The notes below the pieces were generated by a model. That model did no database searches. It saw only the letters and a program-made list of their open reading frames with translations, and was not told where the DNA came from. 42,607 nt of DNA from a virus. The stretch spans positions 1 through 42,607 of the IMG/VR virus record IMGVR_UViG_3300045912_000930; one strand, 5' to 3'. This document shows, piece by piece, positions 15,925-37,217 of this stretch. Both the position numbers and the translations under genes were made by a program. How positions within the stretch are numbered: the first letter of the stretch is position 1; every line of letters begins with the position of its first letter.

Positions 15925-17515
15925 CTTCGCGCTCCTCTGTTTCGCGATCTGTGCTGCGTTCCGGTTGCGGTTGCTGCGGATTGCTAGGGCCGGGCATCTT
16001 CACCACGACCAGGCCGTCGCGCTCCCGCATCCGGCGCTCTTTCACCTGCTCGCGGTGCTTGTCCTTCCACACGCCGCCGGTCAGCTGCATCGTCTCTTCG
16101 GCCAGCGTGCTTACGCCGATCTCTAACCGCTTCGCTGCGGCGTCCACTTCCTTTGTCGGGTCGATTTGTGCGGGCGCGTCGCCGATCCAGTCCGCTTGCA
16201 GGTAGGCGATGCGCCGGGCCGGGTCGTCAAAAAACCCAGGCGCAGCGATACGTCCAAGCGCGACGGCTTCTTCCATCCAGGCCTCGTACACGGGTGCGCA
16301 GAACGTCTGCGCCAGAAACTCCCGGCGCAGACGGAAGAACTTCCAGGCTTCCATCAGGGCCGCGCGCGCCGCGCTGTAGCTGGCGGTGAAATGCTTGATC
16401 AGCACCTCGAACGGCAGGCCCAGCGCGACGCCGATCTGCCGCAAAACCGACTGCACAAACGGGTCGAAGGCCGTGTTCGGGCGGTTCGGGCTGACCGTGG
16501 TGATGTCTTCGCCGGGAGCCAGGTCCACGATGGTGCCCGTGCCCAGCCGGATCTCGGCGTTGCTCGATGCCGCTGCGGGGTCGCCCGCCGGAGGCGCAAA
16601 GCCGTCGCCCGTTTCCGATTTGACGAACACGGTCAGCAGCGAAGCCACGACAGCGGCCATCAGTTCCGACTCGGTGTATTTGTCCAGCTGCTTGAGCGGC
16701 TCGACCACCGGGGCCAGGTAGGGCACGCCGCGCGTCTGGCCGGGCCGCGTGCGCTCGAAGATGTGCAGCACGTTCCGGCGACCCGTCCGCTCACCGAATG
16801 CCAGCACTCGGATAAAGTCCTGCTTGATTCCCTCGGGGCTGCCGGGATGATTGCGCAGGATGTGGTAGGCCACGGGCGCGCCGTTCGCGTCCATCTCCAC
16901 GCCCGCGACGATCTTGTTGCCTGCGTTCTCCTTTTTGCCCGCAGGTGTCTCCACGCGGTCGGCTTCCACCACCTGCACGCGCAGCGCGTAGGGATTCGTG
17001 CGGCTCTCGATCATCGGCAACAGCACGAAGGCGTCGCCGCTTTCGAGCGCTGAGCGGAAGACCAGGCTCTGCAGGCCGTAGAAGTTCTGCGTCCGGGTCA
17101 CGTCGCACTCCGCGGATTCGGCCCACACGCGAAACTCGCGTTCGACCTGAGCCGTCCACTCGTCGGCCTGCTCTTCGGTCATGCCCAGGGCTTCCCAATC
17201 GGGGCGCGGTAGCAGGCTCAGCCCCGTGCCCACCACGTTCATGACCACGGTATTGACCGCGCCCGTGGCCAGCGGCGCGTTGCGCACCATGTCGCGGCTT
17301 CGCGCGCGCAACGTCTCCAGGTCGAACAGCGTGTCCTCATCGGCGCTCGCGGGCGTGACGAACCAGTCCTTCAGCGACCGCCGCGTGTAGCTCGCTCCCG
17401 TCCAGCTAGCGGCGATGGCCATGACCATCCGATCGCGCATCCGCCTTGCCGCCCACGCGGGCGCAAAGTAGCTCACCACGCGGTCAAGCCAATTGGGTTG
17501 TGCGGGTGCGTTCAT
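15911..17515 (-). CDS. Portal protein (lambda gpB family)
   Basis: This 534-residue protein (lambda gpB has 533) forms the portal ring for DNA entry and exit. I place the start at ATG 17515, which overlaps the gpW stop (ATGA); a longer frame upstream only covers gpW. Family features include an N-terminal 'MRDRMVMAIAASWTGAS' region, 'NAPLATGAVNTVVMNVVGTG', 'LESGDAFVLLP', and the 'FTASYSAARAALMEAWKFF' helix typical of lambda portals. The C-terminus is hydrophilic and acidic. Gene order W-B-C agrees with lambda. Confidence 0.92.
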   Translation of the reverse strand: MNAPAQPNWLDRVVSYFAPAWAARRMRDRMVMAIAASWTGASYTRRSLKDWFVTPASADEDTLFDLETLRARSRDMVRNAPLATGAVNTVVMNVVGTGLSLLPRPDWEALGMTEEQADEWTAQVEREFRVWAESAECDVTRTQNFYGLQSLVFRSALESGDAFVLLPMIESRTNPYALRVQVVEADRVETPAGKKENAGNKIVAGVEMDANGAPVAYHILRNHPGSPEGIKQDFIRVLAFGERTGRRNVLHIFERTRPGQTRGVPYLAPVVEPLKQLDKYTESELMAAVVASLLTVFVKSETGDGFAPPAGDPAAASSNAEIRLGTGTIVDLAPGEDITTVSPNRPNTAFDPFVQSVLRQIGVALGLPFEVLIKHFTASYSAARAALMEAWKFFRLRREFLAQTFCAPVYEAWMEEAVALGRIAAPGFFDDPARRIAYLQADWIGDAPAQIDPTKEVDAAAKRLEIGVSTLAEETMQLTGGVWKDKHREQVKERRMRERDGLVVVKMPGPSNPQQPQPERSTDRETEEREDAAA

Positions 17516-17733
17516 TCGTGCGGCACCACCGCGCCTCGCGCCCTCACGCCGCCGCGCGATAGCTGCTTCACCAACTGCTGCCAGTAGCGGAGGTTCTCGC
17601 GGATCTCCCGCGCGTCCGCGCGAGTGAAAGTGCGCCCGCCGAGCGAGTACGCCTGCCCCTTCGCTACCGCCGAGTCCGCGGACAGCCACTCATTCAGGTG
17701 CTGCTCTACTTGCGCGAGTGTCAGTCCAGCCAT
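17512..17733 (-). CDS. Head-tail connector gpW
   Basis: This 73-residue protein is of the gpW family (lambda gpW 68 residues), which adds to the portal before the FII joiner. The pattern 'LTLAQVEQHLNEWLSA', a short beta hairpin 'AYSLGGRTFTRAD', and a helix 'IRENLRYWQQLVKQL' match the two-helix, one-hairpin fold of gpW. No Shine-Dalgarno is present. A -10-like box (CATACT) lies about 10 bases upstream, so it may be translated from a leaderless or near-leaderless transcript that also drives the head operon. Confidence 0.85.
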   Translation of the reverse strand: MAGLTLAQVEQHLNEWLSADSAVAKGQAYSLGGRTFTRADAREIRENLRYWQQLVKQLSRGGVRARGAVVPHE

Positions 17734-17743
17734 GCCGCGCCGG

Positions 17744-17773
17744 AGTATGCAGACACCTCTAGGTGTGCGTCAA
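17744..17773 (-). promoter_or_regulatory. Predicted promoter upstream of gpW with palindromic spacer
   Basis: On the minus strand TTGACG (17773 to 17768) and CATACT (17749 to 17744) are separated by 18 bases. Between them lies the palindrome ACACCT-AG-AGGTGT (17766 to 17753), well placed for a repressor or activator site. The predicted start is a few bases from the gpW ATG. This would allow head and tail genes to be expressed independently of the upstream KAP gene. Confidence 0.5.
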
Positions 17774-17790
17774 TTGTCTTGGTGAACAGG
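17755..17790 (-). repeat. Repeated promoter-like element, copy 1 (downstream of KAP gene)
   Basis: Three blocks on the plus strand (ACCTCTAGGTGT, TCAATTGTCTTG at 17770-17781, GTGAACAGG at 17782-17790) are also found in the same order at 26030-26074. Identities are 11/12, 12/12 and 9/9, with different spacings between blocks. Both copies lie just past the last gene of a cargo segment and before phage genes. It overlaps the predicted gpW promoter. Confidence 0.7.
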
Positions 17791-17842
17791 ACAGGCAGCT
17801 CTGGCCAGTAGGCTGTGGTTCCTGACTATATGGGGATCGTAG

Positions 17843-20122
17843 TTATTCTTTGGGAGGTGGTTGGACCGGCTCAGAACTTCCGGGTGGAGAAGCGGTCTTC
17901 TCGCTCCGTACTGCTTTGTGCATCCTCACGAAAGTCGCTGCCGCCTTGGCGTCAGAGTCTCCTTTCCGTTCTTCGAAAAACCTGTCGTCCTCCAAAGCGG
18001 CACCGTAAACCTTTTGTAGGAAGCCGATCATCACGTCGGGGTCAACGAGGTTCGCAATACCGTCGTAGGTTTCTCTACTGATCGACCCTTGTCTAGGGAG
18101 GCCCGTATCAACGGCCCACACTGTAGGTAGGTAGCAGCCCAGGAATTTCGCGGTTTCTGCCGGATCTCTGTCGAACCGCTGAAGCAAGTAGGTCTTCAGC
18201 GACTCCTTGTTGCCGTAGATGAGCCACATGTCGAAAAGGCTAGCGGCGTACCTGGGATTGGTCAGGTGCGGTGGGGCGTTCTGCGCTTCGGTTGCAATTC
18301 GACCCGCGACTTGCTTTTTAAGTGCGTTCTCCGTCTCTTCGCTGACAATGCGCTCGGAATCGTCCTGATCTTTCGACTTACACAACCACCGGAGCATCTC
18401 AATAGCAAAAGCTGTTGGCTTTGCCCTCTCGATCACCTGGCGTGCGAGAGTCTCCCTTTGCTCGCGGGTGGGCAGACGGTGAACTAAGTGCGAAATAAGA
18501 ATGGCCGCTTGAGAAAAAGGCCCAACAAAGGGAAATAGCTGCTCAGGATTGGGAAAGATAGCCCCCAGACCAGCTAGTGCAAGTGCCAACTTCTCTGCGC
18601 TAGTTGCTTCCACTGTCTTCTCACGCTCACGAAGCTTGGCTACCAGTCTCTCCTCACGGTTGTTTGCTGCAAGTCCGCGAACTTGTTCTTCTATCTGCTC
18701 AACGGTCAATCCTGGGAGCGAAGCAACGAACTGTTGAACCGTACAGTCTGATACGTCGCGGGCGGGAACGGCGTATTGGAAAAACTTCCAAAAATAGTCC
18801 GATGATGCGATACGCTGTTCTCTGGCAAGTCGCTGATCTAGATTGTCTCCAAATCTGATGTTCCCAAGAATGCTTCTTGTTCGAGGGAACAATTCCTGAA
18901 CCAGCTCACTGGCAGCGGAGCGCTCACCCACGGATAATTCGTTGAGCGTACCTTCGATGACCTTGTGCGCTCTCGCTTTCCACTCCTCTTCCTGTAAGGC
19001 CACCTCCGGCCCCAAGAAGACTTCCGGGTCACTTCTGATCGTCGCGTAAAGGTTTGGGTAAAAAAGGCGCAGACCCTCGATGAGCAAGCAGTCCGCAATG
19101 TTCGCCTCTCCGACCAACTGCGGAACCGCAAAAGTAATTGCGTTCACATATCGACTCACCATCCGGGGCGTTGTAAGCCGGATTTCCAGGCCGTTGGTGA
19201 ATGTCTTAACAAACCATTGAACCGTATCCTGATCGAGACTCACCTTGTTAGCGTGAAGTACGGCGTCAACACCCTGAAATGTAGCCTGCCGAAGTGTAAG
19301 TTTGTCTGCTGGCGGCAGGTGAAGTGGAACCTGGATGATCTTCTCTAGAAAAGCCCGCCCAGCTTCCTTCCGCCCACCCGGAAATCTCTCGCCAAGAGCA
19401 TCAGCAACCATATCGTCATCAAATGCAAGCACGTAAGTGACGTGCTCGAAATCCGCAGCAACCTTCACAAGTTTGAAGATGGCCTGAATCTCAGTGCGAT
19501 CCAAACGGTCTATGTCGTCAATGATTACAACCCCCCGCCTCCCGCTGTCGCCTAAAATTCGTTCCAGTCGCTTGCGCAGTTCTTCCAGTTGCACCGTTGA
19601 GAGTTGCAGCCCCAGTTCTTTGGCGGCTTTCGACAAATCGAGACCCGGCAGTTTGAGTGCAGCGAGGGCAAAGCTGTACTTGGTGAGAATCTCACCGATT
19701 TCTTCCTTGCGTTGCTTTAGGGTGCGGCCCAAACCGTCTGCTAGTGTGTAGAAAAATGCGGTCAGCAATTGCCGCTGGTCGCCGAAAAGCCAGGGGTTAA
19801 AAGGGACGACTACAAATCGTGCATCGCTGCGGAGTTCTTCGCGAAGCAGGTTCAAAACCGAAGTCTTGCCTTCACCGTATCGCCCATAAATCCCTATAAC
19901 AAGGCTGCTTGGGTCGGTGCGATTCGCTATAGCATGGACAATCCGTCTTGCAAATGGCAAACGATTGAACCGATCCTCGGTTGGAGATTGAATCGGACGA
20001 TCAGGGCTGAACGAATCCAGTGCTGAACTCCGTTCATCGTGCTCCCGAGGACCAGATTGAGGAGCTTCCTCCGGTTTCGGTGTTCGTTTCCAGAAGCGAT
20101 GGGCGAGCTCACGCAACTTCAT
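17843..20122 (-). CDS. KAP-family P-loop NTPase (moron)
   Basis: This 759-residue predicted ATPase interrupts the packaging module between terminase and gpW. Walker A is GRYGEGKT (residues 80-87), Walker B is VIIDDIDRLD (199-208), and the family-typical FNPWLF follows Walker A at ~108-113. Classic KAP proteins often have membrane helices inserted between the two Walker motifs; I see none here, so it is probably soluble. The C-terminal half is helical with no recognised domain. KAP NTPases occur in defence contexts such as QatA of the Qat system; no QatB, C or D partner is present. Lower GC, its own promoter and no Shine-Dalgarno suggest a separately acquired gene. Function in phage exclusion is an inference. 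Confidence 0.8.
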   Translation of the reverse strand: MKLRELAHRFWKRTPKPEEAPQSGPREHDERSSALDSFSPDRPIQSPTEDRFNRLPFARRIVHAIANRTDPSSLVIGIYGRYGEGKTSVLNLLREELRSDARFVVVPFNPWLFGDQRQLLTAFFYTLADGLGRTLKQRKEEIGEILTKYSFALAALKLPGLDLSKAAKELGLQLSTVQLEELRKRLERILGDSGRRGVVIIDDIDRLDRTEIQAIFKLVKVAADFEHVTYVLAFDDDMVADALGERFPGGRKEAGRAFLEKIIQVPLHLPPADKLTLRQATFQGVDAVLHANKVSLDQDTVQWFVKTFTNGLEIRLTTPRMVSRYVNAITFAVPQLVGEANIADCLLIEGLRLFYPNLYATIRSDPEVFLGPEVALQEEEWKARAHKVIEGTLNELSVGERSAASELVQELFPRTRSILGNIRFGDNLDQRLAREQRIASSDYFWKFFQYAVPARDVSDCTVQQFVASLPGLTVEQIEEQVRGLAANNREERLVAKLREREKTVEATSAEKLALALAGLGAIFPNPEQLFPFVGPFSQAAILISHLVHRLPTREQRETLARQVIERAKPTAFAIEMLRWLCKSKDQDDSERIVSEETENALKKQVAGRIATEAQNAPPHLTNPRYAASLFDMWLIYGNKESLKTYLLQRFDRDPAETAKFLGCYLPTVWAVDTGLPRQGSISRETYDGIANLVDPDVMIGFLQKVYGAALEDDRFFEERKGDSDAKAAATFVRMHKAVRSEKTASPPGSSEPVQPPPKE

Positions 20123-20130
20123 GGCAGCAA

Positions 20131-20160
20131 ACTATAACCGGGACAACAATAACCCGACAA
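20131..20160 (-). promoter_or_regulatory. Predicted promoter of the KAP gene
   Basis: On the minus strand TTGTCG (20160 to 20155) and TATAGT (20136 to 20131) are 18 bases apart, four and five of six matches to the sigma-70 consensus. The expected start lies within a few bases of the ATG at 20122, and no ribosome site precedes it, so the mRNA may be leaderless. The rest of 20161-20227 shows nothing clear. Confidence 0.55.
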
Positions 20161-20227
20161 GCGCGACTCACTTCCGGCGGCCTGACCGGACGGCGCTAGG
20201 GGCCGGGTTTGGGCTCGCGAAATCAAG

Positions 20228-22159
20228 CTAGAAAACCCCCGCGCTTCGCACCCGGCGAACCTTGGCAATCAGCGCTTCCGGCGACTGGCCCTGTTGGACG
20301 GCCTGAGCCAGCTTGCCCAAGTCGCGGTAGATGGCCGGGGCGATGAAGTGTTGCAGCGCGAACAGCCCGGCGTGGCAGTACACGGTCAGGTCCAGCGCCT
20401 CGTTCCGGCTGTAGGTCTTCACGTAGAGCACTTTTTTCGTGCGCGTGCGTTTGTCGCGCACGGTGATCTTCTTCTCCCCGGTCAGCTGCTCCAGGTATTC
20501 GTCGGTCACCCAATCGGGCAGGTGCATGTAGCCCGGCCCAGGCCGCGGAATCTTCATTCGGGCAAACACACGATCTTTCGCGGCGTAGGTCGCTACGGCA
20601 AACAGGCGAATGTTGCTGCGCTTAGTCGAGCCGTCCTGCACCAGCCCCGGCTTGCTCAAGTAGTCCACGCCCTTGCAAGCGAAGACGCGGCGGCGGGTGT
20701 GCTGACGCGGTAGAACGAAGTCATAGACGCTGTCGGCGTGCGCGCCGGCGTCCACCAGCGCGATGGCCGGCGTCAGCAGCGGCCCGCAAGGATGCTGCCA
20801 AGGCTTCAACAGGAACTGGTCTAGCTGCTCCCACACGTTGACGGCCGTCTCCGGGTCAACCTCGACGCCGGGATCGCCCCAGAAAACTTCATGGGCAATC
20901 AGCCAGGATTCCTCGCCCGGCCCGAAGCCCACGATCTGCGCCTCGATGCGGTTGTGCTGCACGTCCGCCGCCGCGACCAGCACGCAAACGCCTTCGGGCA
21001 CGGGCGCGGGATACTTCTCGCGTCGCGCGGCCAGCACATGCGCGCCGAAGCTCTCGCCGCCCTCGTCCCATGTTTCGCCCAGGCGAAGGTTCACGAACGC
21101 CTTCAGCTTCTCCGGGTTGTCCTGGGCCTCGGTCCACTCCTGGGCGAGCTCGTGCCAGTTGAGCCGCCACGGGCTGTAGAGCGCGTTGATGTGGAAGCCG
21201 ATCACCTTGGTGCGCTCGGGAAACCTGGCCTTCCACTGGCCGCCGCCGAGCATCCGCTGTTTGTACTTCTCGTCTATGCCCTTGCCGCACTGAGGATTGG
21301 CGCAGAGGTAGCGCACGGTTTCCGGGATGGGGTTCCCGCTTGCGTCCTTCTCCCACACCAAACGATGCACGCCGTTCTCGTCGCGCCAGCAGAGCACCTG
21401 CATGTGCCCGCAGAACGGGCAGGGGACGAAGTAGCGCATCTGATTGCTGCGCTCGTAGTCGGCTTCGATGCGCGAGAGGCCCTTGGGCTTCCCCGGCGTG
21501 CTGCCCTTGAGGATTTTTGCGTCGTCGAACGTGTCGGTGCGCCGCGTGGCAATCTCGACCGGATCGCCTTCGCCGTCCACGTCGTCTGGGTAGCCGTCCA
21601 CTTCATCGAGCAGCAGGATGGCGATGGGGTCGGAGCGCAGGCCCGCGCCCGCGTTCGCGCCGGTGATCTTCAGGAAGCCGCCGTCAAATTCCTTGAGCAG
21701 CATGGAATTGCCGGGCCGCCGCGACGTTGCTTCGCGCACCTTGGCCTTGAGTGCGGGACAGGCAGCGATCATCGGCGCGATGCGCTTGCGGCTGTACTCC
21801 TTCGCCGTGTGGTCAGTGGGCTGCACGAGCATGATGGGCTTCGGGTCGGCGTCAATGAAGTAGCCCACGATGTTGTTCAGCACGCCGTCGCTCCAGCCCA
21901 CCTGAGTGCTTTTCATGCAGATGATCTCGCGCACCTCGGGATTGAGGATGGCGTCCATCATCTCGCGCTGGAAGGACTCAGTGACCCACTGCCCAGGGCG
22001 GGCGCTTGTGCCTTTAGGAAGGATTCGGTTTCGCTCGGCCCACTCGCTGACCTTCAGCGTCGGCGGCGGAGCCAGCAGTTGCCGCGCCAGGCGGCCCCTG
22101 GCCCCGCGAATCCGGGCCAGCGGTTCCGGTGGGGTCAGCGGTGCCATTGGCGAATTCAT
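20228..22159 (-). CDS. Terminase large subunit (GpA family)
   Basis: This 643-residue protein cuts and packages phage DNA. GpA features are present: SEWAERNRIL (~38-47), the Walker-A-like CMKSTQVGWSD (81-91), Walker B LLLDEVDGYPDD (~182-192), a zinc-binding CPFCGH...CANPQC region (about 245-295), and the C-terminal nuclease part with VAAADVQ and later DAGAHAD acidic clusters. The start at ATG 22159 gives a 146-base overlap with the small-subunit gene; the conserved SEW motif lies before the end of that gene, so a long overlap is required. Length equals lambda gpA (641). Confidence 0.92.
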   Translation of the reverse strand: MNSPMAPLTPPEPLARIRGARGRLARQLLAPPPTLKVSEWAERNRILPKGTSARPGQWVTESFQREMMDAILNPEVREIICMKSTQVGWSDGVLNNIVGYFIDADPKPIMLVQPTDHTAKEYSRKRIAPMIAACPALKAKVREATSRRPGNSMLLKEFDGGFLKITGANAGAGLRSDPIAILLLDEVDGYPDDVDGEGDPVEIATRRTDTFDDAKILKGSTPGKPKGLSRIEADYERSNQMRYFVPCPFCGHMQVLCWRDENGVHRLVWEKDASGNPIPETVRYLCANPQCGKGIDEKYKQRMLGGGQWKARFPERTKVIGFHINALYSPWRLNWHELAQEWTEAQDNPEKLKAFVNLRLGETWDEGGESFGAHVLAARREKYPAPVPEGVCVLVAAADVQHNRIEAQIVGFGPGEESWLIAHEVFWGDPGVEVDPETAVNVWEQLDQFLLKPWQHPCGPLLTPAIALVDAGAHADSVYDFVLPRQHTRRRVFACKGVDYLSKPGLVQDGSTKRSNIRLFAVATYAAKDRVFARMKIPRPGPGYMHLPDWVTDEYLEQLTGEKKITVRDKRTRTKKVLYVKTYSRNEALDLTVYCHAGLFALQHFIAPAIYRDLGKLAQAVQQGQSPEALIAKVRRVRSAGVF

Positions 22160-22607
22160 TGGCCAGAGCGGTCAGGGCCTCGCGTATCGCTTTATCGAGC
22201 CGCGTTTTTACGACCGTGCGATTCTCGCCTTCGAGATGCGGCGCGAGCCGCGCGGGCAGGGTGAGCAGCCGCTGACGCAGCACAGTGAAGATCGTGCCCA
22301 CTTCCTGCTCATAGACGGCCGCCGGGATCAGCTCGCCGCGCCGCGCCCCGAGTTCCAACTCCTCCCGGTCCGCCTGGGCCTTGACCAGCCGCTGCCGCTC
22401 CTGGCGCAGCGAAGCCCCGATGGCGTCCTGGGGAATCTCCCGGCGCTCCAGGGCCTTCTGCAGATAGCGGACGTACCACATCAGGCAGAGCCCGACGTCG
22501 TACTTCCCCTTCTCCGGGCGCGGCATTCCCTCGGCAACCAGCTGCTGCACGCGGCGCACGCCGATGTTCAGGGCGCGCGCAACCTTTGCGACTCCCACCA
22601 GCGCCAT
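22014..22607 (-). CDS. Terminase small subunit (Nu1-like)
   Basis: This 197-residue protein should bind the packaging site and recruit the large subunit. The first ~55 residues are a winged-helix DNA-binding domain of the Nu1 type (VGVAKVARALNIGVRRVQQL, then GLCLMWYVRYL). A charged coiled coil follows (LRQERQRLVKAQADREELELG), then 'VYEQEVGTIFTVLRQRLLTLPARLAPHL', a segment typical of Nu1/DUF1441 small subunits. The last ~45 residues (Gly, Pro, Ala-rich) overlap the large-subunit frame and are probably disordered. ATG 22607 has an AGGGG site. Confidence 0.85.
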   Translation of the reverse strand: MALVGVAKVARALNIGVRRVQQLVAEGMPRPEKGKYDVGLCLMWYVRYLQKALERREIPQDAIGASLRQERQRLVKAQADREELELGARRGELIPAAVYEQEVGTIFTVLRQRLLTLPARLAPHLEGENRTVVKTRLDKAIREALTALANEFANGTADPTGTAGPDSRGQGPPGAATAGSAADAEGQRVGRAKPNPS

Positions 22608-22613
22608 GCCATC

Positions 22614-23165
22614 TCACCCCTGGGGCACCCAGGATTTCCCGAAGTCCGCGCGCTCGCGGCCCACCTGCTCCGGCATCCCGGCGCGATCTTCCAGCCGCTC
22701 GACCTCTTCATCTTCCATGCCCAGCCGCTGCATGATGTCGGCTTTCTCGACGCCCTCGGTGACCATCGTGCGAACGATCTCGGCCATCGGCAGAACCGCA
22801 TGCGTGCCGCGCGCACGGTTGTGGCGAATCGTACTCATCATTCGGTGCACCGGATCGAGCGCGACTTTGACCACGGGCACCATCCCGCCGTAGAGCTCGA
22901 TCAGGCGCAGATCGCCGCTGACCAGGTAGCGGTGGAAGCCGTCCACGATGGTGTAGTCGGGCAGCACGACGATGGGCTGCGTGAAGCCGTCTTCGAGGAT
23001 GCTGACGATCAGCAACTCCAGTTCGGGCGGCGCGACCCGGTTCGGGTTGTAGTGGTTCGGCTTCAGCCGGTCGCGATGCACCCACTCGACGCGGCTCACC
23101 GGCTCGCTGGCCAGATCGCGCGGCGCGCCAGGCGGAATCTGTTCAGGCTTCGCATTCTTCGCCAT
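22614..23165 (-). CDS. ParB/Srx-fold protein, IbrB-like
   Basis: I place the start at ATG 23165 (183 residues), four bases after the stop of the PAPS-reductase-like gene. The ParB/sulfiredoxin N-terminal fold is visible: RDRLKPNHYNPNRV, LLIVSILEDGFTQPIVVLP, then VDGFHRYLVS in place of the ParB GERR-type nucleotide-binding box. The C-terminal part is helical and may hold a HTH (VEKADIMQRLGMEDEEVERL). The pairing of a PAPS-reductase-like gene with a small ParB-like gene is that of IbrA/IbrB, first reported as regulators of Ig-binding protein genes in E. coli. What the pair does in phages is not established to my knowledge. Confidence 0.8.
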   Translation of the reverse strand: MAKNAKPEQIPPGAPRDLASEPVSRVEWVHRDRLKPNHYNPNRVAPPELELLIVSILEDGFTQPIVVLPDYTIVDGFHRYLVSGDLRLIELYGGMVPVVKVALDPVHRMMSTIRHNRARGTHAVLPMAEIVRTMVTEGVEKADIMQRLGMEDEEVERLEDRAGMPEQVGRERADFGKSWVPQG

Positions 23166-23169
23166 GCGC

Positions 23170-24354
23170 TCAGTACCTCGTGCCCAGGTCAAGCTCGGTC
23201 ACGTCCGCGATCCTGACCCCAGCTTTCTTCCGCGCCTGCGTCGCGTGGCTGTTCATCGTGCGGCTGCGGCGGCCCTTCAGGTCGCCGCGATTGACGACCA
23301 TCGCCAGGAACTTCCAGCTGAGGCCGGTGAGCAGATCGGGCTGCTCTTCAGGGACGGGCCTGCTGGTCTTGCTCTTGTGCTCGCGCAGGAGCACGACAAG
23401 GTTCTTAGCGATGGACGCCTTCAGCTCCGGCGGATAGAGATCAAGCAGCCGGTACGTCCACTCGCGCCACGTCAGGCCGGGCGGCTTTTCGATCTTCCCA
23501 TAGCCGTAGAGTTCGGTGTTCGCGTAGCGGCCCGCCGTGGCCGCGCCGTGCACGCGGTTGATCATCTTGTGCCAGAGGTCGGGCCAGCACTGTGCGTAAA
23601 TCCAGAGGCCGCTCAGCGGCTCTTCGCCGTAGGGCGGGCAAACGCGCTGGTCGCTCAGCGGCATCCCGGCTTTCTGCATCAGGTCGTAGGCGCGGTTGTA
23701 GTCCCAGCCGAACCGCTTCGGCGCAACCCACACATCAAACGTCGTCCAGTCGTAGATCGGGCTGACGGGGTAGCTGTAGCCTTCGCGCGGGTTGCCGATC
23801 CAGTTGTCGCGCAGCTTCATGGCCACGCTGCGATACCGGCGCAGCGATTCATCGGCGCGTATGCCGCGAATGTCGGCCACGGTGCCGTGTTCTTTGCCGT
23901 AGACCATGTGGGCCAGTTCAGGGATGCCCATGCCCAACTGGAAGCCGGGCAATTCGGTGATCGCGCCTTCCGGCATTGGGCGCACCCAGAGGTGTTTCTC
24001 CGCCGGGTTCCAGCAGTGCCAGTAGGGTTGCTTGCGGCTGCAAGCGTTCCTGTGGCGCACGGGGATGCAGAGCCACTTCAGGCGCACATCCGGGCGCTGC
24101 GCCACGCGCGCGACGTATTCGATGGTTTCCGGGTGAATCGCTTCCTCGTCCCAGAAGTACACGTCGAGCGGCAACCGCCTAAGCTCGCGCGCGACCTGCA
24201 GGGCCAGGTTGAGGCAGACAGTGGAGTCCTTGCCGCCGCTGAAGCTGACCACGACGGTGTCGAACCGCTCGTAGCACTCGCCGATGCGGCGCAGCGCCGC
24301 TGCGTACACGTCCTCGTCCACCAGCTGCTTCTTGTAGATTCGCGTCTTGGCCAC
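23170..24354 (-). CDS. PAPS-reductase-like PP-loop protein, IbrA-like
   Basis: This protein has the PP-loop SFSGGKDST at about residues 37-45, the mark of PAPS reductase and ATP-pyrophosphatase enzymes that adenylate a substrate or move sulfur. Later segments (DVYFWDEEAIHPETIEY, DIRGIRADESLRRYR, SPIYDWTTFDVW) follow the PAPS-reductase/IbrA (DUF3440) pattern. I chose GTG 24354 (394 residues, GAGG site); the longer frame needs a TTG with no ribosome site. Several Cys are present (CSRKQPYWHC, VCPPYGE), but no certain Fe-S set. It is coupled to the ParB/Srx-fold gene downstream. DndC and SspD belong to the same superfamily, but no cysteine desulfurase or other Dnd/Ssp gene is seen. Confidence 0.82.
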   Translation of the reverse strand: MAKTRIYKKQLVDEDVYAAALRRIGECYERFDTVVVSFSGGKDSTVCLNLALQVARELRRLPLDVYFWDEEAIHPETIEYVARVAQRPDVRLKWLCIPVRHRNACSRKQPYWHCWNPAEKHLWVRPMPEGAITELPGFQLGMGIPELAHMVYGKEHGTVADIRGIRADESLRRYRSVAMKLRDNWIGNPREGYSYPVSPIYDWTTFDVWVAPKRFGWDYNRAYDLMQKAGMPLSDQRVCPPYGEEPLSGLWIYAQCWPDLWHKMINRVHGAATAGRYANTELYGYGKIEKPPGLTWREWTYRLLDLYPPELKASIAKNLVVLLREHKSKTSRPVPEEQPDLLTGLSWKFLAMVVNRGDLKGRRSRTMNSHATQARKKAGVRIADVTELDLGTRY

Positions 24355-24367
24355 GCGCGCGCCTCGG

Positions 24368-25069
24368 TTACCTCGTGCGGATTGCTTCAATCTCCGACGC
24401 GCTCACGCCGTTGACGATGGTGCGGTTGATCATCGGGTGCTTTTCGTCGGTCGGCCCGAAGTCGCTGTCTGGGTGATAGGCCAGCACGCGCATGTCTTCG
24501 CCGTAAGGCGTGCGGAAGCTGTGCAGCCCGCCTGTGTGGATGCAGAAGATCATGCCGGGCACCAGGTCAATCTCGCCCTGCGGCGTAATGCACTGGCCGC
24601 GCCCGCTTAAGATCATTCCGATCCGGTCGCTGGGATGCGTGTGCTGCGTCTGGTCAATCCCGGCGGGGAAATACAGCAAGTTGAGGCACGGGTCGCCCAG
24701 GCGCACGGGTGGAATCAGCAGGCTGTCGGTGCAACCGTCAATGTACTTCAGCCGCCCGGTGTGCTCGGCAGGCCCGCCGATGTGGAAGAAGCCCTGCCAG
24801 TTCTCGCGGGTGACGACGATGCCCCTGCCCCCGCCAATCATGCGGAAGGCGCCGGGCACGCTGAAGTACATGCCCGGATGCAGGTGGAACACGCGGCCGT
24901 CCTTCAGCAGGATCGGCTGGCCTTCGTGCACGTATCCGAAATGCGTGCCCGCGTCGTCCTCAACCACCAGCGCCTGGTCGGGCACAAAGGCGCTCAGGTA
25001 GCTGGGAAACTGCCGATCCAGGTCGGCGATCTTCCCGTGCTGCCAGCTGAAGTGGCTAAAACTTCTCAT
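24368..25069 (-). CDS. Cupin-domain protein
   Basis: This 233-residue protein carries two cupin-like halves. The second is clearer: QTQHTHPSDRIGMILSGRGQ, then 'GEIDLVPGMIFCIHTGGLHSF', a cupin motif pair in which His residues could hold a metal, although the usual Glu of motif 1 is not evident. The first half has GQPILLKDGRVFHLHPGMYF. The start at ATG 25069 (GGAGG site) overlaps the upstream ParB gene by 14 bases, and the PAPS-reductase-like gene follows 13 bases after its stop, so the four genes look co-transcribed. Substrate unknown; a small-molecule or nucleotide-modifying role with the PP-loop enzyme is possible. Confidence 0.7.
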   Translation of the reverse strand: MRSFSHFSWQHGKIADLDRQFPSYLSAFVPDQALVVEDDAGTHFGYVHEGQPILLKDGRVFHLHPGMYFSVPGAFRMIGGGRGIVVTRENWQGFFHIGGPAEHTGRLKYIDGCTDSLLIPPVRLGDPCLNLLYFPAGIDQTQHTHPSDRIGMILSGRGQCITPQGEIDLVPGMIFCIHTGGLHSFRTPYGEDMRVLAYHPDSDFGPTDEKHPMINRTIVNGVSASEIEAIRTR

Positions 25070-25730
25070 CGTGTTCCTCCAGGTAGAGTTCGCAGATGTG
25101 GAACAGCGCGTCGCCGCGCCGCTCGAATCGTTCCCGCTGCTTCGCCAGCTGAATCGCGGCGTTCACCACGTTGCGCTGCTCGAACGACAACACCTCGCTG
25201 AACGTCACCAGCAGATTCCCCTCGCCTTGGCCCGCATCGCCGGGCGTGCCGTGAACCTGGCCTGCTTCGAAAGGCTCATCGTCCTCGCCGGCGTCAGCGC
25301 CCGCGATTTTCTCCAGCGCCGATTCGTCCAGATCGTCGGCGATGCGCTTCAGGTCGTCCTCGGTGAAGCCCGCTTGCCCGATCAGCTGCACATCAAGGCC
25401 GCGCAGCTCCTCGATCTCCTGGGCCAGCAGGCCAATGTCCCAATCACTGTCACGGTTCGTGCGGTTGTCGGCCAGGCGCAGCGCCTTCACTTTGTCCGGC
25501 GCAAGGCTGCCCGCAACCACCACAGGCACCTGTTTCGCTTCCAGCAGCTTCGCCGCTTCCAGCCGCCCGTGGCCGATGATGACCACGAACTCCTTGTCCA
25601 CCACGATGGGCTGCTGCCAGCCGAATGCCGCGATGGAGTCCGCGATCTTGCGGATCGAGTCCTCGCTGCGCCTGCGCGGATTGCGCCCGTAGGGCTTCAG
25701 CTTATCGATTCCGACCCACTGCACCTTCAC
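25056..25730 (-). CDS. ParB-like N-terminal domain protein
   Basis: This protein (224 residues from GTG 25730; a GTG at 25745 would add five) has a ParB domain of the type often fused to DNA methylases in phages: IDKLKPYGRNPRR, IADSIAAFGWQQPIVVD, IIGHGRLEAAKLL, and ALRLADNRTN. The methylase part is missing; instead there is an acidic linker and a short helical C-terminus (NVVNAAIQLAKQRERF). GTG 25730 is preferred because AAGGGG lies 5-6 bases upstream and homologues usually begin just before VQW-like residues. It heads the four-gene ParB/cupin/IbrA/IbrB cluster. Confidence 0.78.
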   Translation of the reverse strand: MKVQWVGIDKLKPYGRNPRRRSEDSIRKIADSIAAFGWQQPIVVDKEFVVIIGHGRLEAAKLLEAKQVPVVVAGSLAPDKVKALRLADNRTNRDSDWDIGLLAQEIEELRGLDVQLIGQAGFTEDDLKRIADDLDESALEKIAGADAGEDDEPFEAGQVHGTPGDAGQGEGNLLVTFSEVLSFEQRNVVNAAIQLAKQRERFERRGDALFHICELYLEEHDEKF

Positions 25731-25741
25731 CGGGCACCCCT

Positions 25742-25861
25742 TCACACTGAGCCTGCCCGTCCGGCAGGCGGGCGCAGCGAACGTGATTTCGCTTTTTCCG
25801 GGGGTCTCTGCGCGCCTCTGAAACGCTGGAAACCCGCATCAGCGCTGGTCAAAGTGCCCAT
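25742..25861 (-). other. Short reading frame of uncertain coding status
   Basis: A 39-codon frame (ATG 25861 to TGA 25742-25744) ends in a GTGA overlap with the possible longer start of the ParB gene. It has no ribosome site at good spacing, is Arg/Pro/Ser-rich and contains the inverted repeat at 25751-25769. The wording of its product reminds me of a dispersed intergenic repeat seen in Acidobacteriota genomes, so I regard it as probably non-coding. Confidence 0.25.
25751..25769. repeat. Inverted repeat (hairpin) upstream of ParB-like gene
   Basis: GCCTGCC (25751-25757), loop CGTCC, GGCAGGC (25763-25769): a perfect 7-bp stem. No T-tract follows on either strand, so it is not an intrinsic terminator. 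It might be a protein-binding site or part of a REP-like repeat. Confidence 0.6.
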
Positions 25862-25890
25862 TTCGCTGCTCGCTCCAAGCGAAGCGAAAT
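25860..25890. repeat. Inverted repeat with a nearby T-tract
   Basis: ATTTCGCT (25860-25867) and AGCGAAAT (25883-25890) are perfect inverted copies with a 15-base loop. Six T residues lie at 25096+800 in plus orientation, that is 25896-25901. It could be a plus-strand terminator, but no plus-strand gene reads into it, so a REP-like repeat is more likely. Confidence 0.45.
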
Positions 25891-26029
25891 GACAATTTTT
25901 TCCGCCTTACACTGGCGTGAGGCCGCGCCCGCCGTCACCCGCGAACGTCAGGCTACCGAAAGGACCCGTTGCCCTCCGCACCCGAGCATTCGCGCCTCAC
26001 TTCCGTTTGCCCTCGGACGGAACAAGGTA

Positions 26030-26074
26030 ACCTCAAGGTGTACCTAATTCAATTGTCTTGCTGATGTGAACAGG
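26030..26074 (-). repeat. Repeated promoter-like element, copy 2 (downstream edge of the island)
   Basis: The plus strand holds ACCTCAAGGTGT (26030-26041), TCAATTGTCTTG (26049-26060) and GTGAACAGG (26066-26074), the same blocks and order as at 17755-17790. On the minus strand this gives a TTGAAT -35-like box followed by a near-palindrome (GGTA-ACCT, AGGT-g-TACC; 26026-26044). The -10 is weak (TACCTT), so an activator might be needed. It lies past the last island gene, facing the ParB/terminase genes. Confidence 0.65.
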
Positions 26075-26135
26075 TAGGGTGCGCCGACGAATGGAATGTT
26101 CAGTTTGGCGGTATTGCGGCTAGGTTCAGGGTACG

Positions 26136-26603
26136 TCAGTGAGTCTCGAAGTCGTTGTATCTCGTTCCCAGGACGACGGCGACGTATATCTCCAACATGG
26201 CTTGCCTAAGCGGATCAGTTTCTTCCACGAACCGCAAATCCATTTCACGAATCCTGGCTTTAGCCTTGCCAAAGGCATCAGCAAAGAGCGGATCGGCGAG
26301 AAGGGCACGGCGGGAGCCTTTCGATGTGTAGCTTGCCTCAGTGAGTCCGGTTGCTTCGCGGGCCAGCTTGAATGCAAAGACCGCCTGATTGTGCTGAGCG
26401 GCGGGGATGGAGTGTTGTCGTAGCCTGCTCCTCAGCTTCCTGGTTCTACCCACGTATAGGTGGTCGTCACCTTCGCTGAAGAGATAGATGGACTTTGCTG
26501 GCAGCTTCTTCGGAAGCCTACTTATCGCGACCGGAGTCATTCTCATCAGCTGCTCGAATGCAGGATGAAGGGCCTCGGCGTACCGCCTGAAGGCTTCGTG
26601 CAT
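26136..26603 (-). CDS. GIY-YIG nuclease-fold protein
   Basis: This 155-residue protein has the GIY-YIG core: SIYLFSEGDD (Ile39-Tyr40), then LYVGRTRKLRSRLRQH with Tyr50, Gly52, Arg53 and Arg60, and a downstream Glu138 (RQAMLEIY) that could be the metal ligand. The GIY part is altered (SIY), which is common. The first ~30 residues are a helical extension. It is the last gene of the island, 8 bases after the CDGSH gene, ATG 26603 with AGGGG. GIY-YIG domains occur in restriction enzymes, homing nucleases and repair proteins. Either a restriction nuclease of the island or a stand-alone DNA-processing factor is possible. Confidence 0.7.
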   Translation of the reverse strand: MHEAFRRYAEALHPAFEQLMRMTPVAISRLPKKLPAKSIYLFSEGDDHLYVGRTRKLRSRLRQHSIPAAQHNQAVFAFKLAREATGLTEASYTSKGSRRALLADPLFADAFGKAKARIREMDLRFVEETDPLRQAMLEIYVAVVLGTRYNDFETH

Positions 26604-26611
26604 GACGACCC

Positions 26612-26842
26612 CTACGAGCCTTCCACTCGGGGCGCAACGTCATCGGCCTGAAATCCCACGGTCTTATGGCTTCCATCGCAAAAAGGTTTGTTGGCACTGT
26701 GCCCGCAGCGGCACAGCGAGAACGCCGCCTTGCCCTGCAAATCAAACGCCTTGCCGTCTGCGTCCACCAATTTGATCTCCGCCCCATCCGTTGCTTCCAC
26801 GCGAAACGGCCCATTCTTCCTCACTGTAATCGTCACAGGCAT
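26612..26842 (-). CDS. CDGSH iron-sulfur domain protein
   Basis: This 76-residue protein carries the full CDGSH cluster ligand set: Cys44-x-Cys46-x8-Cys55-Asp-Gly-Ser-His59, which binds a 2Fe-2S cluster with three Cys and one His, as in mitoNEET. The N-terminal ~40 residues (ITVRKNGPFRVE) form the beta strands usual in bacterial members. No membrane anchor. ATG 26842 has a strong GGAAGGAG site, and it sits between the EVE-type nuclease and the GIY-YIG protein. Redox sensing or cluster transfer is known for the family; why one lies inside a DNA-targeting operon is unclear. Confidence 0.88.
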   Translation of the reverse strand: MPVTITVRKNGPFRVEATDGAEIKLVDADGKAFDLQGKAAFSLCRCGHSANKPFCDGSHKTVGFQADDVAPRVEGS

Positions 26843-26861
26843 CAGTTTGATCTCCTTCCCC

Positions 26862-27998
26862 TCACTGTGGGGTGGTGAGGACTTCCCAATCTTTCTTGCT
26901 TACCCGGCGAGTGGCCTGGACAAACCACGCCCAAGATTTATTCGATACCCGCCCCTTGAACGCCTCCAGACGACCACGAAGCGAGGCGCCAATCGGAATT
27001 GGCGACTGCAGGTATAGCTTCGCGTTCTCCACTTTGAAAACCCAGGGATAGGCCTCCGCATGGCGAACCCGAGGATCTTCTTTCTTCTCTGGCGCAGAAG
27101 CAACGCGAGCGTGGGCAACCACTCCTTTGCCGGTCGAATAGAAGCAAATCCAGTCACCGGGCTTAAGGTGCTTGCGCCCAGGCGTTCTTTCCCCGAACGC
27201 GTAAATTTTAGCTTTGCCAACAAGCGACTCAACCACTTGCTCAGCTGTTTGCTCCTCGTCGCTTCTGACAGGCGTCAGCCAGTACGCTATCTCACCCTCG
27301 GGAACTTCCACAGGCAAGGGAACAGCTTGCTCCGTCGCCTCCTCTACTTCGGTCTGCGCCACAAGTCCCGCCATCAGGTTAACTAGCGGGTCTATCATCG
27401 GCCCAGACGGACGAAGGATTGAGAGGATGTCTTTGTGGCTCACATCGAACTCTTGCATCATCTCAGTCAGAGAAAGCAGGGATTCTACGGAAATGACTCG
27501 CAATTGAGCTGTCCGCTTCTCGGCGATGATCGCGTTCTCCAGCTGGCGCAGTTCAGGATTTGGTCGGCCCACGACATACAACCCGAGAGCCGAATCCCAA
27601 CTCGGGATCAACTTTTCCGAAATCAGTCCATCAACGTACCCAGTCAGGCTGGATGTTTTTATCGCGTAGACCTCAGTCGTTTTGACCTCGATGACAACGT
27701 GAAGGCCGGTTGACGCTGACTTCCAGTGGCCGTCGAAGCCAAGCTGACCAGCGACGCCCTGGTATCGCCCGAAGTCCACGTCGAATCCTAGAAAATGGCC
27801 GAGATGGTTCACGAGATCCTGGAGGGCCCGACTGTATTGTTCGCCCGAATTGCGTAGGCACTGCTCTATGTAGTCTCGCACTTCGCCGACCTCTTTGACA
27901 CTTTCGGTCAGGAACCTCCTAAACCTCTGACGGGCAGTTCCTTCCCCTGGCGAATCATCCAGTTTCCCAACCAATGACAGCACTTGATCGAGGTCCAT
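26862..27998 (-). CDS. PD-(D/E)xK nuclease with C-terminal EVE/PUA-like reader
   Basis: This 378-residue protein joins two domains. Residues ~55-175 resemble a PD-(D/E)xK nuclease: Asp89 (GFDGHW) and the Glu104-Val-Lys106 pair (VVIEVKTTE) on neighbouring strands. The C-terminal ~140 residues start with AYWLTPVRSDE and include PGDWICFYSTGKGVVAHARVAS, the pattern of EVE/PUA-like domains that bind modified bases, followed by YPWVFKVENAKLYL. EVE modules fused to nucleases are typical of modification-dependent restriction enzymes, so cutting of DNA with modified cytosine is a plausible role. ATG 27998 has GGGAGG. No close name is given because I cannot check homologues. Confidence 0.72.
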   Translation of the reverse strand: MDLDQVLSLVGKLDDSPGEGTARQRFRRFLTESVKEVGEVRDYIEQCLRNSGEQYSRALQDLVNHLGHFLGFDVDFGRYQGVAGQLGFDGHWKSASTGLHVVIEVKTTEVYAIKTSSLTGYVDGLISEKLIPSWDSALGLYVVGRPNPELRQLENAIIAEKRTAQLRVISVESLLSLTEMMQEFDVSHKDILSILRPSGPMIDPLVNLMAGLVAQTEVEEATEQAVPLPVEVPEGEIAYWLTPVRSDEEQTAEQVVESLVGKAKIYAFGERTPGRKHLKPGDWICFYSTGKGVVAHARVASAPEKKEDPRVRHAEAYPWVFKVENAKLYLQSPIPIGASLRGRLEAFKGRVSNKSWAWFVQATRRVSKKDWEVLTTPQ

Positions 27999-28054
27999 TG
28001 CGTCCCTCCCAGGTCGTACACATTCTCTCGACCCTCAGGATGCCTGCGGCTGCC

Positions 28055-28436
28055 CTACGATGCATGGTGACGCTGGGCAAGGCGCTGGGCTAGAGATAGC
28101 AGTAGCCCGCGCCGCCGATCTTCCATCTTGGACAGCAGCCTTCGGAATCGTCCCAGCTCTCGCGCCTCTCTCCCAGTATCGCCCTAAGCAGCTCGCTTCG
28201 GGCGAACCTTCAAAACCGGCTTTGGCGCCTCGTTGCCCTCTTAGAACAGCTGGTACATCGGCACTTCCAGCGCCCGCGCAAACTTCTCCAGCGTCTCGAC
28301 AGCCGGGCACGGTGTGCCCATTCTCCACGCGTGAAACGTAGGCGCGCAGCAACCCCGTGCGATGCTCTACATCGCCCTGGCTCAGCTTCTTCGCTTCGCG
28401 GATCGCCCGTAGCTTGTCTCCAATCAGCATAGTCAC
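28055..28436 (-). pseudogene. XRE-family regulator, disrupted by frameshift and two stops
   Basis: The first ~43 codons (GTG 28436 or ATG 28430) encode a normal XRE helix-turn-helix (IREAKKLSQGDVEHRTGLLR, then YVSRVENGHTVP). An extra base near 28309 breaks the frame. In the shifted frame the family continues as VETLEKFARALEVPMYQLF, then meets TAA where a Tyr codon is expected, runs on as EGNEAPKPVLKVRPKRAA, meets TAG, and goes on through 'GREARELGRFRRLLSKMED' to TAG at 28055. One frameshift and two in-frame stops make a simple sequencing error unlikely. The intact form resembles regulators abundant in Acidobacteriota. It overlaps the upstream nuclease gene (GTGA) and may once have controlled the restriction genes. 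The HTH part alone could still be made. Confidence 0.8.
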
Positions 28437-29164
28437 CTGTTGCTTCGCCGCTTGAGGCGCGCACGCAGTCTTTCAACCTGCCTTTCCAAATGCTCGACTG
28501 ACCGCTTCCATTTGTTCGATCCCGCGATCTCTCGCAGTACGTCCTCACATTTCGAGCAGAGATACATTTTCTTGTTGAAGATGCCCCCTGCGGGCAGTGG
28601 CGTGAGCTGATCTCGGACCCAGTGACCATCTACAGCTACGCCCCGGACGCCAGGTTTGTAGCGGAACAAATAACAGGAACACAGGGCACAGCGGACAATT
28701 CGCAGGGACTTGTGCAAGAAAAGCTCGAACTTTTCAGCGTCGGGAGCAAATCTGCGAGACTCCGACACGGCCTTAACGGCTCTGCCATTTCTGCCGATTT
28801 GTAGTAGCCCAACCCCGAGGCGCGAAGCCTCAACCTTAGTTTTCTGATCGAACTTGCGGGGCTGCGCAAGGTAGCAACGATGGGCCAACTGAGAGTATTG
28901 GTGTGCTTGAACTAGGTTGCGCAATGAAGTTCGACTTGAACTGCGTTTCACCTCAACAGCTATTCCTTCTAAGGCGCGCGATCCTGTCTCCTTTGCGCCC
29001 CGAACCCCAAACACATCGACTATCAGCCCACCGAGGCCACGTCCCACAAACTTCCGCGCTGTACCATCCCTGTTAAAGCTTTCGACTACGCACCCCATGC
29101 GCCTGCTGAGAAATTGACGCACGGGTTCGTAGTAACTTTTCTCGGGCAGCTTTCGTCTTCCCAT
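28433..29164 (-). CDS. PD-(D/E)xK nuclease-like protein with zinc ribbon
   Basis: This 243-residue protein has a candidate nuclease core: Asp50 in LIVDVFG and Glu71-Val-Lys73 in GIAVEVKRSSSR, the D...ExK pattern of restriction enzymes. Arg and Ser after the core may contact DNA. A zinc ribbon follows with CxxC at 159/162 (CALC) and CxxC at 203/206 (CSKC), then a basic coiled-coil end (VERLRARLKRRSNR). ATG 29164 lies 59 bases after the previous gene. It could act with the neighbouring methyltransferase as a type II-like enzyme, or be guided to DNA by its zinc ribbon. I do not recognise the exact family. Confidence 0.65.
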   Translation of the reverse strand: MGRRKLPEKSYYEPVRQFLSRRMGCVVESFNRDGTARKFVGRGLGGLIVDVFGVRGAKETGSRALEGIAVEVKRSSSRTSLRNLVQAHQYSQLAHRCYLAQPRKFDQKTKVEASRLGVGLLQIGRNGRAVKAVSESRRFAPDAEKFELFLHKSLRIVRCALCSCYLFRYKPGVRGVAVDGHWVRDQLTPLPAGGIFNKKMYLCSKCEDVLREIAGSNKWKRSVEHLERQVERLRARLKRRSNR

Positions 29165-29222
29165 ATGGCTAAGCCCTACACTAACGATTGCCGGGTCGTC
29201 GCCAACGGCTTCGAGGAAGCCG

Positions 29223-29549
29223 TTATGTTAGCGTCGTGCTGCGCTGACGCGTCCAGGCCTCGTGGTCTTCTCTGTAGTCAAAGTGGTTCCGGACGTGTAG
29301 AGCGCATCGTCCGTGCCAATAGGCCTCGCTCAACACCCTTGCCTGCTCTTCTGAAAAGCCAAACTGCCTGAGGCGCAGGCGAACCTCAGAGATGTCCCAC
29401 CCTGCTCTGAAAGTGTGTGCGACCACGACGAATCTGTAAAATCTTCCCCAGTCAAGTGGGTGTAGAGCTTCCTTGTTGGCAGGAACCGCAAATCGCTTCA
29501 GGGCACGATCTACGGGGCTTCGTCGCTCCTGCTTTTTTCTCTCGCGCAT
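29223..29549 (-). CDS. Small protein of unknown function in the island
   Basis: This 108-residue protein starts at ATG 29549, 12 bases after the methyltransferase stop; a longer frame upstream would overlap the methyltransferase in another frame and is rejected. It begins with a strongly basic segment (RERKKQERRSP), then a hydrophilic helical body with EVRLRLRQFGFSEEQARVL, a pattern like a small helix-turn-helix or SAM-like fold, and ends with several Trp, His and Arg residues. No cysteine pair or catalytic motif is evident. Coupling to the methyltransferase suggests a specificity or accessory role, but that is only inference. Confidence 0.6.
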   Translation of the reverse strand: MRERKKQERRSPVDRALKRFAVPANKEALHPLDWGRFYRFVVVAHTFRAGWDISEVRLRLRQFGFSEEQARVLSEAYWHGRCALHVRNHFDYREDHEAWTRQRSTTLT

Positions 29550-29560
29550 CGTATGGAGTA

Positions 29561-30796
29561 TCAGCACTGAAAGATCACAACTGATTCCCGAGAAGGGTGA
29601 CGGCCGTAGCAACCCATCTGCTGCGCGCTGTTGCCGCGCAGCCGGATGAGCCAGGTTTCCTTCCACTTCAGGTCTACCTTCTCTCCTAGCTTGGCGAGTA
29701 TCTCATCCACGGGAACGTGGACGCCGGCGTGTCGTACGTTGCCGACCACAAATGCCATGTGGCCGCCTGGCTTCACCATTTGCTTGCAAACCTTCAGGGT
29801 CTGATGCATGTCCTCGAAATACCCGCGAATCATACGGGGCACGCGCTTGTCATGCACATCGTTGAGATCGTCCAGCACTCGTGAGACAGCCCTGGGGGGC
29901 GTCCATCCATTCGTGGGACGGACAGCCCGGGCTTCCACGTGAGAGCGCAGGTTGCGGTATCGAAGCTGCTTTAACTCGTCGTCATCGAGAAACAGGAACA
30001 GCAACTCTGTCGTGAAGATGCGCGTGTAGTCGTGGCGATTGGGATATGGCGGAGACGTGATAAGGCCGTCGAACTGCCCGTGGCCTTTGAGTGGGTAACG
30101 AGCATCGTGTTCGTAAGCGCGCCACTCGCCGCCCTTGTGGTTCCCATTTGCTGGTTGGAGGTCGGCGAGCATCTTGCGCACAGTTTGAGCAAACCGGGCT
30201 GACGTGGTTTCTGCGCTGGCCCGAACACGCCGCCAGCGGAACCAGCCGCCGTCAGGCAGTGCCCGGCTGTAATGCGGAAGGATTCGCAGCAACGCCAGCA
30301 GGAAAAACTGCTGCTCCACTCGGTCAGCTTCCTGGACGATAGCGCGCCGAATGCGTTCCAGATGCCGGTGGGTCTCCTCCTCAAGGGCCTTTTCCAGGAA
30401 ACCTAAGCGTTCAACCCGGCGGGGCAGCGCGAGTCGGTCTATCGCCCGCTGAATCTTGGCCCAGGTCAGGGACAGCTTCTCCACCCGGTAGGGAGCAACC
30501 TTGGCGTTCGCAACAAAGACGGAAAGGGGTGAAATGTCGGCCCCGATAGCCGATATTCCGCGCGCCGTTGCCGCCAACAGCGTAGTACCTGCCCCGACGA
30601 AGGGGTCATAGATGCGTGCCCCGCCATCCAACCCCCAATCGTCGAGCAGCGACTCGACCAACACATGGGAATAGCTGTGGGGGAACAGGAACCAGTTGTG
30701 TATCGGAGTCTTTCGCAGAGGTCGAGGCGTGGCGTGACGGCTCAGATCGAGCCGATCTCTGAATCCACGCGGCAGGTTACCAATGTGTGTCGCCAA
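29561..30796 (-). CDS. DNA methyltransferase (TSPPY type)
   Basis: This 411-residue protein has the two key methyltransferase motifs: motif I DPFVGAGT (64-71, binds S-adenosylmethionine) and motif IV TSPPY (247-251, catalytic). TSPPY is typical of N4-cytosine methyltransferases, though some N6-adenine enzymes share it. A helical region of ~100 residues lies between the motifs and may be the target recognition part; the C-terminus has GGHMAFVVGNVR (motif VIII-like). It starts at TTG 30796 with GGGAGG upstream, 18 bases after HerA. It probably marks self DNA for one of the nucleases in the island. Target sequence unknown. Confidence 0.82.
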   Translation of the reverse strand: MATHIGNLPRGFRDRLDLSRHATPRPLRKTPIHNWFLFPHSYSHVLVESLLDDWGLDGGARIYDPFVGAGTTLLAATARGISAIGADISPLSVFVANAKVAPYRVEKLSLTWAKIQRAIDRLALPRRVERLGFLEKALEEETHRHLERIRRAIVQEADRVEQQFFLLALLRILPHYSRALPDGGWFRWRRVRASAETTSARFAQTVRKMLADLQPANGNHKGGEWRAYEHDARYPLKGHGQFDGLITSPPYPNRHDYTRIFTTELLFLFLDDDELKQLRYRNLRSHVEARAVRPTNGWTPPRAVSRVLDDLNDVHDKRVPRMIRGYFEDMHQTLKVCKQMVKPGGHMAFVVGNVRHAGVHVPVDEILAKLGEKVDLKWKETWLIRLRGNSAQQMGCYGRHPSRESVVIFQC

Positions 30797-30814
30797 GGTT
30801 CGAGCGTTACCTCC

Positions 30815-32662: not shown

Positions 32663-32678
32663 TGGACTTATTCCCCTT

Positions 32679-33824: not shown

Positions 33825-33825
33825 C

Positions 33826-37179: not shown

Positions 37180-37217
37180 GCGGTAGGGACCTCCCAGGGC
37201 TTCGACCACCGCAACGG

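Follow-up and report, generated by a model that had tools for sequence, protein, structure and literature searches.

A conserved promoter-like element with two dyads at the downstream edge of two cargo slots in a group of related phages

Results

Gene order of the window and its relatives

The window analyzed here, the whole of a 42,607-bp IMG/VR virus record, carries nearly all of its phage genes on the minus strand. Read along that strand, the genes begin with a Cro-like HTH gene, a RecE-type exonuclease, RusA, and O-like and DnaC-like replication genes, followed by a cargo island (26136–37209, minus strand; type IIG R-M, MTases, HTH, GIY-YIG and others). Beyond the island come genes for ParB, a cupin, a PAPS/DUF3440 protein, a second ParB and terminase, then a KAP gene, and finally the gpW-like adaptor, portal, protease, major head protein, tape measure and tail genes. 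An earlier note on this DNA had described two copies of a promoter-like element, and both are present: copy 1 (17744–17793, minus strand) between the KAP gene and gpW, and copy 2 (26024–26072, minus strand) between the island and the ParB/terminase genes. The terL–gpW interval (slot 1) holds a PifA-like KAP P-loop NTPase (17843–20122, minus strand; PADLOC PifA, 1e-77), and its other edge is the stop codon of the terminase large subunit gene (20228–22159, minus strand). The island upstream of parB and copy 2 constitutes slot 2.

About 10 close relatives were found by portal, terL, parB and cupin searches combined with a pattern scan of IMG/VR; their records are fragments and supply few independent sequences. 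The terL and portal proteins of named phages share less than 60% identity with those of this group, and a terL search of genome contigs returned only two distant matches (45%, Yanghanlia caeni; 27%, Buttiauxella).

The two copies are a true repeat with a shared upstream dyad

The block TCAATTGTCTTG occurs exactly at 17770–17781 and 26049–26060 only; these two 12-mers are unique within the window, where every other match has 2–3 mismatches. The palindrome ACACCTNNAGGTGT is exact at 17753–17766 and has 2 mismatches at 26028–26041. A two-block model built from the relatives, with the window copies left out, scored 46.7 and 42.7 bits at copies 1 and 2, whereas 30 Markov shuffles of the window reached no more than 26.3. 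The repeat is thus real and not a product of chance.

Three blocks in the same order had been proposed for each copy. All are present, but the third, GTGAACAGG, is out of register by 5 nt: relative to AAGACA, CCTGTTCAC lies at −10 to −2 in copy 1 and at −15 to −7 in copy 2. What is conserved in register between the copies is instead a dyad of the form TGT-N13-ACA (dyad A), which the earlier note overlooked. It reads TGTYCT-N7-ARGACA in both copies and abuts the −35 hexamer in fixed phase. The proposal of a TTGA-type −35 with an AGGT palindrome on the minus strand of each copy also held in part; the −35 is found in both, but only copy 1 has a perfect palindrome (dyad B), and the two copies place it 4 nt apart relative to the −35.

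Copy 1 would drive the gpW/portal operon

On the minus strand, copy 1 reads TGTCCTGTTCACCAAGACAA-TTGACG-CACACCTAGAGGTGTCTG-CATACT-N10-ATG and is conserved at the same place in relatives. Dyad A (TGTCCTGTTCACCAAGACA, 17775–17793), a putative regulator site, is followed by the −35 hexamer TTGACG (17768–17773; 9/12 match, 18-nt spacer). Within the spacer lies dyad B (ACACCTAGAGGTGT, 17753–17766), a putative operator, and the −10 hexamer CATACT (17744–17749) ends 10 nt before the gpW ATG. TTGACG-18-CATACT was the sole promoter-like match in a scan of 17500–18000. The predicted operon opens with the gpW-like head-tail adaptor (DUF6148, phrog_118; 17512–17733, minus strand), and the portal gene is next (PF05136; 15911–17689, minus strand).

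The distance from the −10 to the gpW ATG is 10–12 nt in 8/8 genomes. A Shine-Dalgarno sequence is absent from gpW and present on several downstream or neighboring late genes. Given this spacing and the lack of a Shine-Dalgarno sequence, the gpW mRNA is predicted to be near-leaderless, with transcription starting 0–5 nt before the ATG. The predicted arrangement would resemble leaderless promoters such as lambda PRM, in which the start codon lies a few nucleotides from the transcription start without a Shine-Dalgarno sequence; the lambda cI message is leaderless in this way. It differs in that the leaderless start is here a prediction and belongs to a structural operon. The KAP/PifA-like gene seemingly has a promoter of its own, TTGTCG-N18-TATAGT, 8 nt before its ATG, and likewise lacks a Shine-Dalgarno sequence.

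Copy 2 precedes the ParB operon

Copy 2 precedes the ParB-cupin-PAPS/DUF3440-ParB-terminase genes, has orthologues in L018, L022, L061 and L063, and reads TGTTCACATCAGCAAGACAA-TTGAAT-TAGGTACACCTTGAGGT-TACCTT on the minus strand. Its dyad A (TGTTCACATCAGCAAGACA, 26054–26072; TGT-N13-ACA) keeps the phase to the −35 seen in copy 1. The −35 hexamer TTGAAT (26047–26052) was recognized from the sequence and alignment. Dyad B is degenerate (ACACCTTGAGGTTA, 26028–26041) and displaced 4 nt from its place in copy 1. The −10 hexamer TACCTT (26024–26029), separated from the −35 by 17 nt, is kept in L018, L022 and L061 and has diverged in L063. A consensus promoter scan found nothing at copy 2, where TTGAAT/TACCTT falls below threshold; judged by consensus, this putative promoter is a weak one. 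Both copies therefore carry sigma-70-type hexamers within the 16–18 nt spacing range, copy 1 as detected by scan and copy 2 as indicated by conservation in most relatives.

Between copy 2 and parB lies a conserved non-coding stretch of about 280 nt (25746–26023, minus strand), a candidate leader or cos/pac region. It holds blocks such as TCGCGGGTGACGGCGGGCGCGG together with repeated CGAAATG/CATTTCG, which could belong to a cos/pac site or a structured leader. A search of Rfam over 17400–26700 found no family. The ParB, cupin and PAPS/DUF3440 cassette at 23170–25745 is conserved downstream of copy 2 and resembles IbrB/IbrA (PMC4490671).

The dyads are conserved among relatives

Dyad A keeps its N13 spacing in all aligned copies, with the first T changed to C in copy 1 of L022 and copy 2 of L063. 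In L020, TGTCCT/AAGACA has become TGTACT/AATACA, a symmetric change on both arms. Dyad B is absent from L020, indicating that it is not indispensable. Pairing was kept in 86% of cells, compared with 29–48% when the partner was slid, which, with few sequences, is modest evidence for covariation. Conserved dyads that are putative operators are thus present in the element. Dyads A and B lie side by side once more in G002, at 45358–45392 (reverse-complement coordinates), where 50 shuffles yielded 0 such pairs. From this pair a stretch extends to a transglycosylase-like gene, near lysis genes; the pair has no clear −35.

The element is found before gpW in L017, L018, L019, L022, L014 and L063, in diverged form in L020, and as a relic in L021 and L023. 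Before parB, it is found in L018, L022 and L061 and has diverged in L063. Exact-pattern searches of whole records placed the element at these two loci and never matched either more than once. Distant relatives (portal identity ≤58%) showed no element before gpW, and wider pattern scans of IMG/VR returned only this phage group and unrelated matches in other phages. In L021 and L023, gpW has given way to a version with 34–37% identity that has a promoter-like sequence of its own; in L023 this sequence includes ACACCTCGAAGTGT, 1 mismatch from dyad B. The intervals L021:2743–2927 and L023:4815–4930 contain the promoter relic (in L021 also the old gpW start), followed by the replacement gpW and its new promoter-like sequence.

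Cargo lies upstream of the element and turns over

Whether cargo always lies on the same side of the element could be addressed in the relatives, and it is always upstream. Slot 1 is empty in two of them, L018 (122 nt) and L020 (64 nt), and both retain the gpW promoter, although in L020 its spacer dyad is gone. Loss of the element from cargo-free relatives, which the earlier note had named as evidence against its proposal, is thus not seen at slot 1. Seven close relatives carry unrelated cargo there: a 384-aa protein (L017), a MerT-HMA protein and a neighbor (L019), 160- and 203-aa proteins (L022), 348- and 373-aa proteins (L014), 155- and 312-aa proteins (L021), a HerA-like ATPase (L023) and a 458-aa protein (L063). 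The orientation of slot 1 cargo varies among relatives, and no slot 1 cargo is common to them. The L019 cargo gene (L019:7907–8536) encodes MerT fused to an HMA domain.

The window, G001 (L018) and G002 (L022) carry different cargo in slot 2, except for one conserved small gene (26518–26814 in the window); G001 and G002 also share a 343-aa gene. No empty slot 2 was found among the relatives, which leaves copy 1 as the only copy shown to be independent of cargo. Judged by gene content, the slots are ordinary moron/defense hotspots, with unrelated genes or none at slot 1 and variable content, without an empty example, at slot 2. Transfer of cargo between the slots via the shared element was considered and rejected, as slots 1 and 2 have no cargo proteins or DNA in common.

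The boundary of slot 1 is sharp. Pairwise identity stays at background (0.2–0.3) from −70 to −16, reaches 0.72 at −15 to −11, which is the TGT of dyad A, and is 0.84–1.00 over AAGACAATTG. This sharp rise coincides with the outer edge of dyad A, which places the boundary of the cargo at the edge of the promoter-like element. Whole-genome alignment of the window with G002 resumes at the same places, the upstream edge of the element. On the terL side of slot 1, similarity stops near the terL stop codon, and the exact point varies between pairs. No copy of the element was found at this terL edge, each slot having one copy only.

Discussion

We conclude that the element is very probably a regulated sigma-70-type promoter of the phage core, placed at two fixed loci and not part of the cargo, from which two operons would be restarted while cargo is tolerated upstream. 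At the sequence level, the retention of the element at both loci in relatives supports the earlier suggestion that a phage promoter/operator sets phage transcription going again after each cargo. One copy would start the gpW-portal morphogenesis operon and the other the ParB/cupin/PAPS-DUF3440/terminase operon. Given that each operon would restart from its own promoter, the DNA upstream of each copy would form a permissive junction between transcription units, where cargo may insert and turn over without the late genes being cut off.

The two inverted repeats suggest that this promoter is regulated. The fixed phase of dyad A to the −35 suggests an activator, which most likely binds there, next to the −35. 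The variable phase of dyad B suggests a repressor, which most likely binds in the spacer and acts by steric exclusion. MerR-type spacer operators follow a rule of 19–20 nt spacing; this class was set aside because the spacer here is 17–18 nt and the phase of the dyad is variable.

A repressor-only version of the same promoter deserves the most serious consideration, although we regard it as rather unlikely; it is compatible with the promoter reading, and its probability overlaps that of our preferred explanation. Here, both dyads would serve only to silence the late operons in the lysogen, through a repressor or the Cro-like protein, and no activator would take part. The spacer position of dyad B is typical of sites that repress sterically, G002 carries a serine recombinase that points to a temperate group, and the small Cro-like HTH (42332–42607), the sole early regulator seen, is conserved in the window and G002. 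An activator fits better with dyad A, whose phase relative to the −35 is the same in the two copies and which persists in L020, where dyad B is missing. The dyads were also not found at early promoters within the available sequence, which likewise speaks against repression alone.

With an activator added, a more specific scheme can be put forward tentatively, and we lean slightly against its being correct in full. A clade-specific late switch would combine a non-Ogr activator recognizing TGT-N13-ACA with a spacer-bound repressor and control two, perhaps three, operons. A near-leaderless gpW mRNA made only from this promoter would insulate the structural genes, and the placement of the promoters would create the cargo slots.

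The earlier note had offered a preferred recombination boundary as its second explanation. In this account, the element would provide short homology, shared by both copies and by co-infecting relatives, for cargo swapping of the RecE/YqaJ type, and promoter function might be incidental. As a description it fits, in that homology between relatives returns within ~13 nt of the element at both slots; a RecE/YqaJ-type exonuclease is also encoded by the phage, and the cargo of relatives is unrelated. Nevertheless, we consider this account improbable. The element is missing from the far side of the cargo, which ends at the terL stop, and L019 carries additional cargo without the element: a type II methyltransferase and 199-aa partner (L019:3861–5404) form a third slot between terS and terL. 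Moreover, the element is retained in cargo-free genomes, the two slots share no cargo, and the conserved −35/−10/ATG geometry is not needed by a recombination site. The duplication at both insert edges that defines a site-specific, attachment-like site is absent. Cargo edges at the terL stop and the promoter edge look like selection for intact units, and insertion tolerated between transcription units fits better than a recombination site.

That the element belongs to the cargo, as a terminator or 3′ end brought by each moron or as the end of a mobile cassette, can be rejected with near certainty: it directly follows the last cargo gene in the window, and morons often bring their own promoter and terminator, but it is found in cargo-free L018 and, diverged, in L020, is nearly identical beside unrelated upstream cargo of either orientation, and is conserved in register with the downstream phage gene and not with the cargo.

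The proposed core promoter can be compared with known systems. Activator sites in P2 lie near −55, whereas TGT-N13-ACA here abuts a good −35, with its center at about −47, and a second dyad occupies the spacer. The likeness to P2-family Ogr/Delta late promoters lies in the multiple copies in each genome, with one for every late operon, and in the upstream TGT...ACA partial dyad (PMC3931495); a consensus of TGT-N12-ACA is cited for P2 PP, PO, PV and PF (PMC3931495). Because the spacing is N13 and not N12, and Ogr/Delta (PF04606) was found in 0/5 records, all five possibly fragments, we do not class the element as a P2-type late promoter. The slots resemble the hotspots of PMC9122126 in that fixed phage loci in otherwise conserved genomes hold unrelated cargo, often defense genes; as in P2/P4, slot 2 adjoins a conserved non-coding stretch, here possibly cos (PMC9122126). 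They differ in belonging to another phage group with two main slots (terL–gpW and upstream of parB), each with a conserved promoter copy at its downstream side. Regulated phage promoters beside moron/defense hotspots are already known, and what is new is the combination within a new phage group.

Both main slots in this group end at a copy of the same putative promoter, which offers a concrete, testable reason for phage cargo gathering where it does, namely at the edge of a regulated promoter from which a core operon starts anew. If the promoter reading is true, the virus could switch on its structural genes whatever cargo lies upstream. The natural empty and filled pairs allow the insulation of late genes from cargo by the promoter to be measured, and the conserved element can be used to find more cargo slots in related phages, including those with defense and metal-resistance genes.

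Two minor observations concern the surroundings of terL. In L063 (11520–11620), a cargo promoter just after terL combines TTGACA with a different spacer dyad, ACTCTG-N6-CAGAGT. In L092 (G002, reverse-complement 51768–53424), the ORF for a serine recombinase continues into a copy of a terL 3′ segment, 75% identical, at the contig end.
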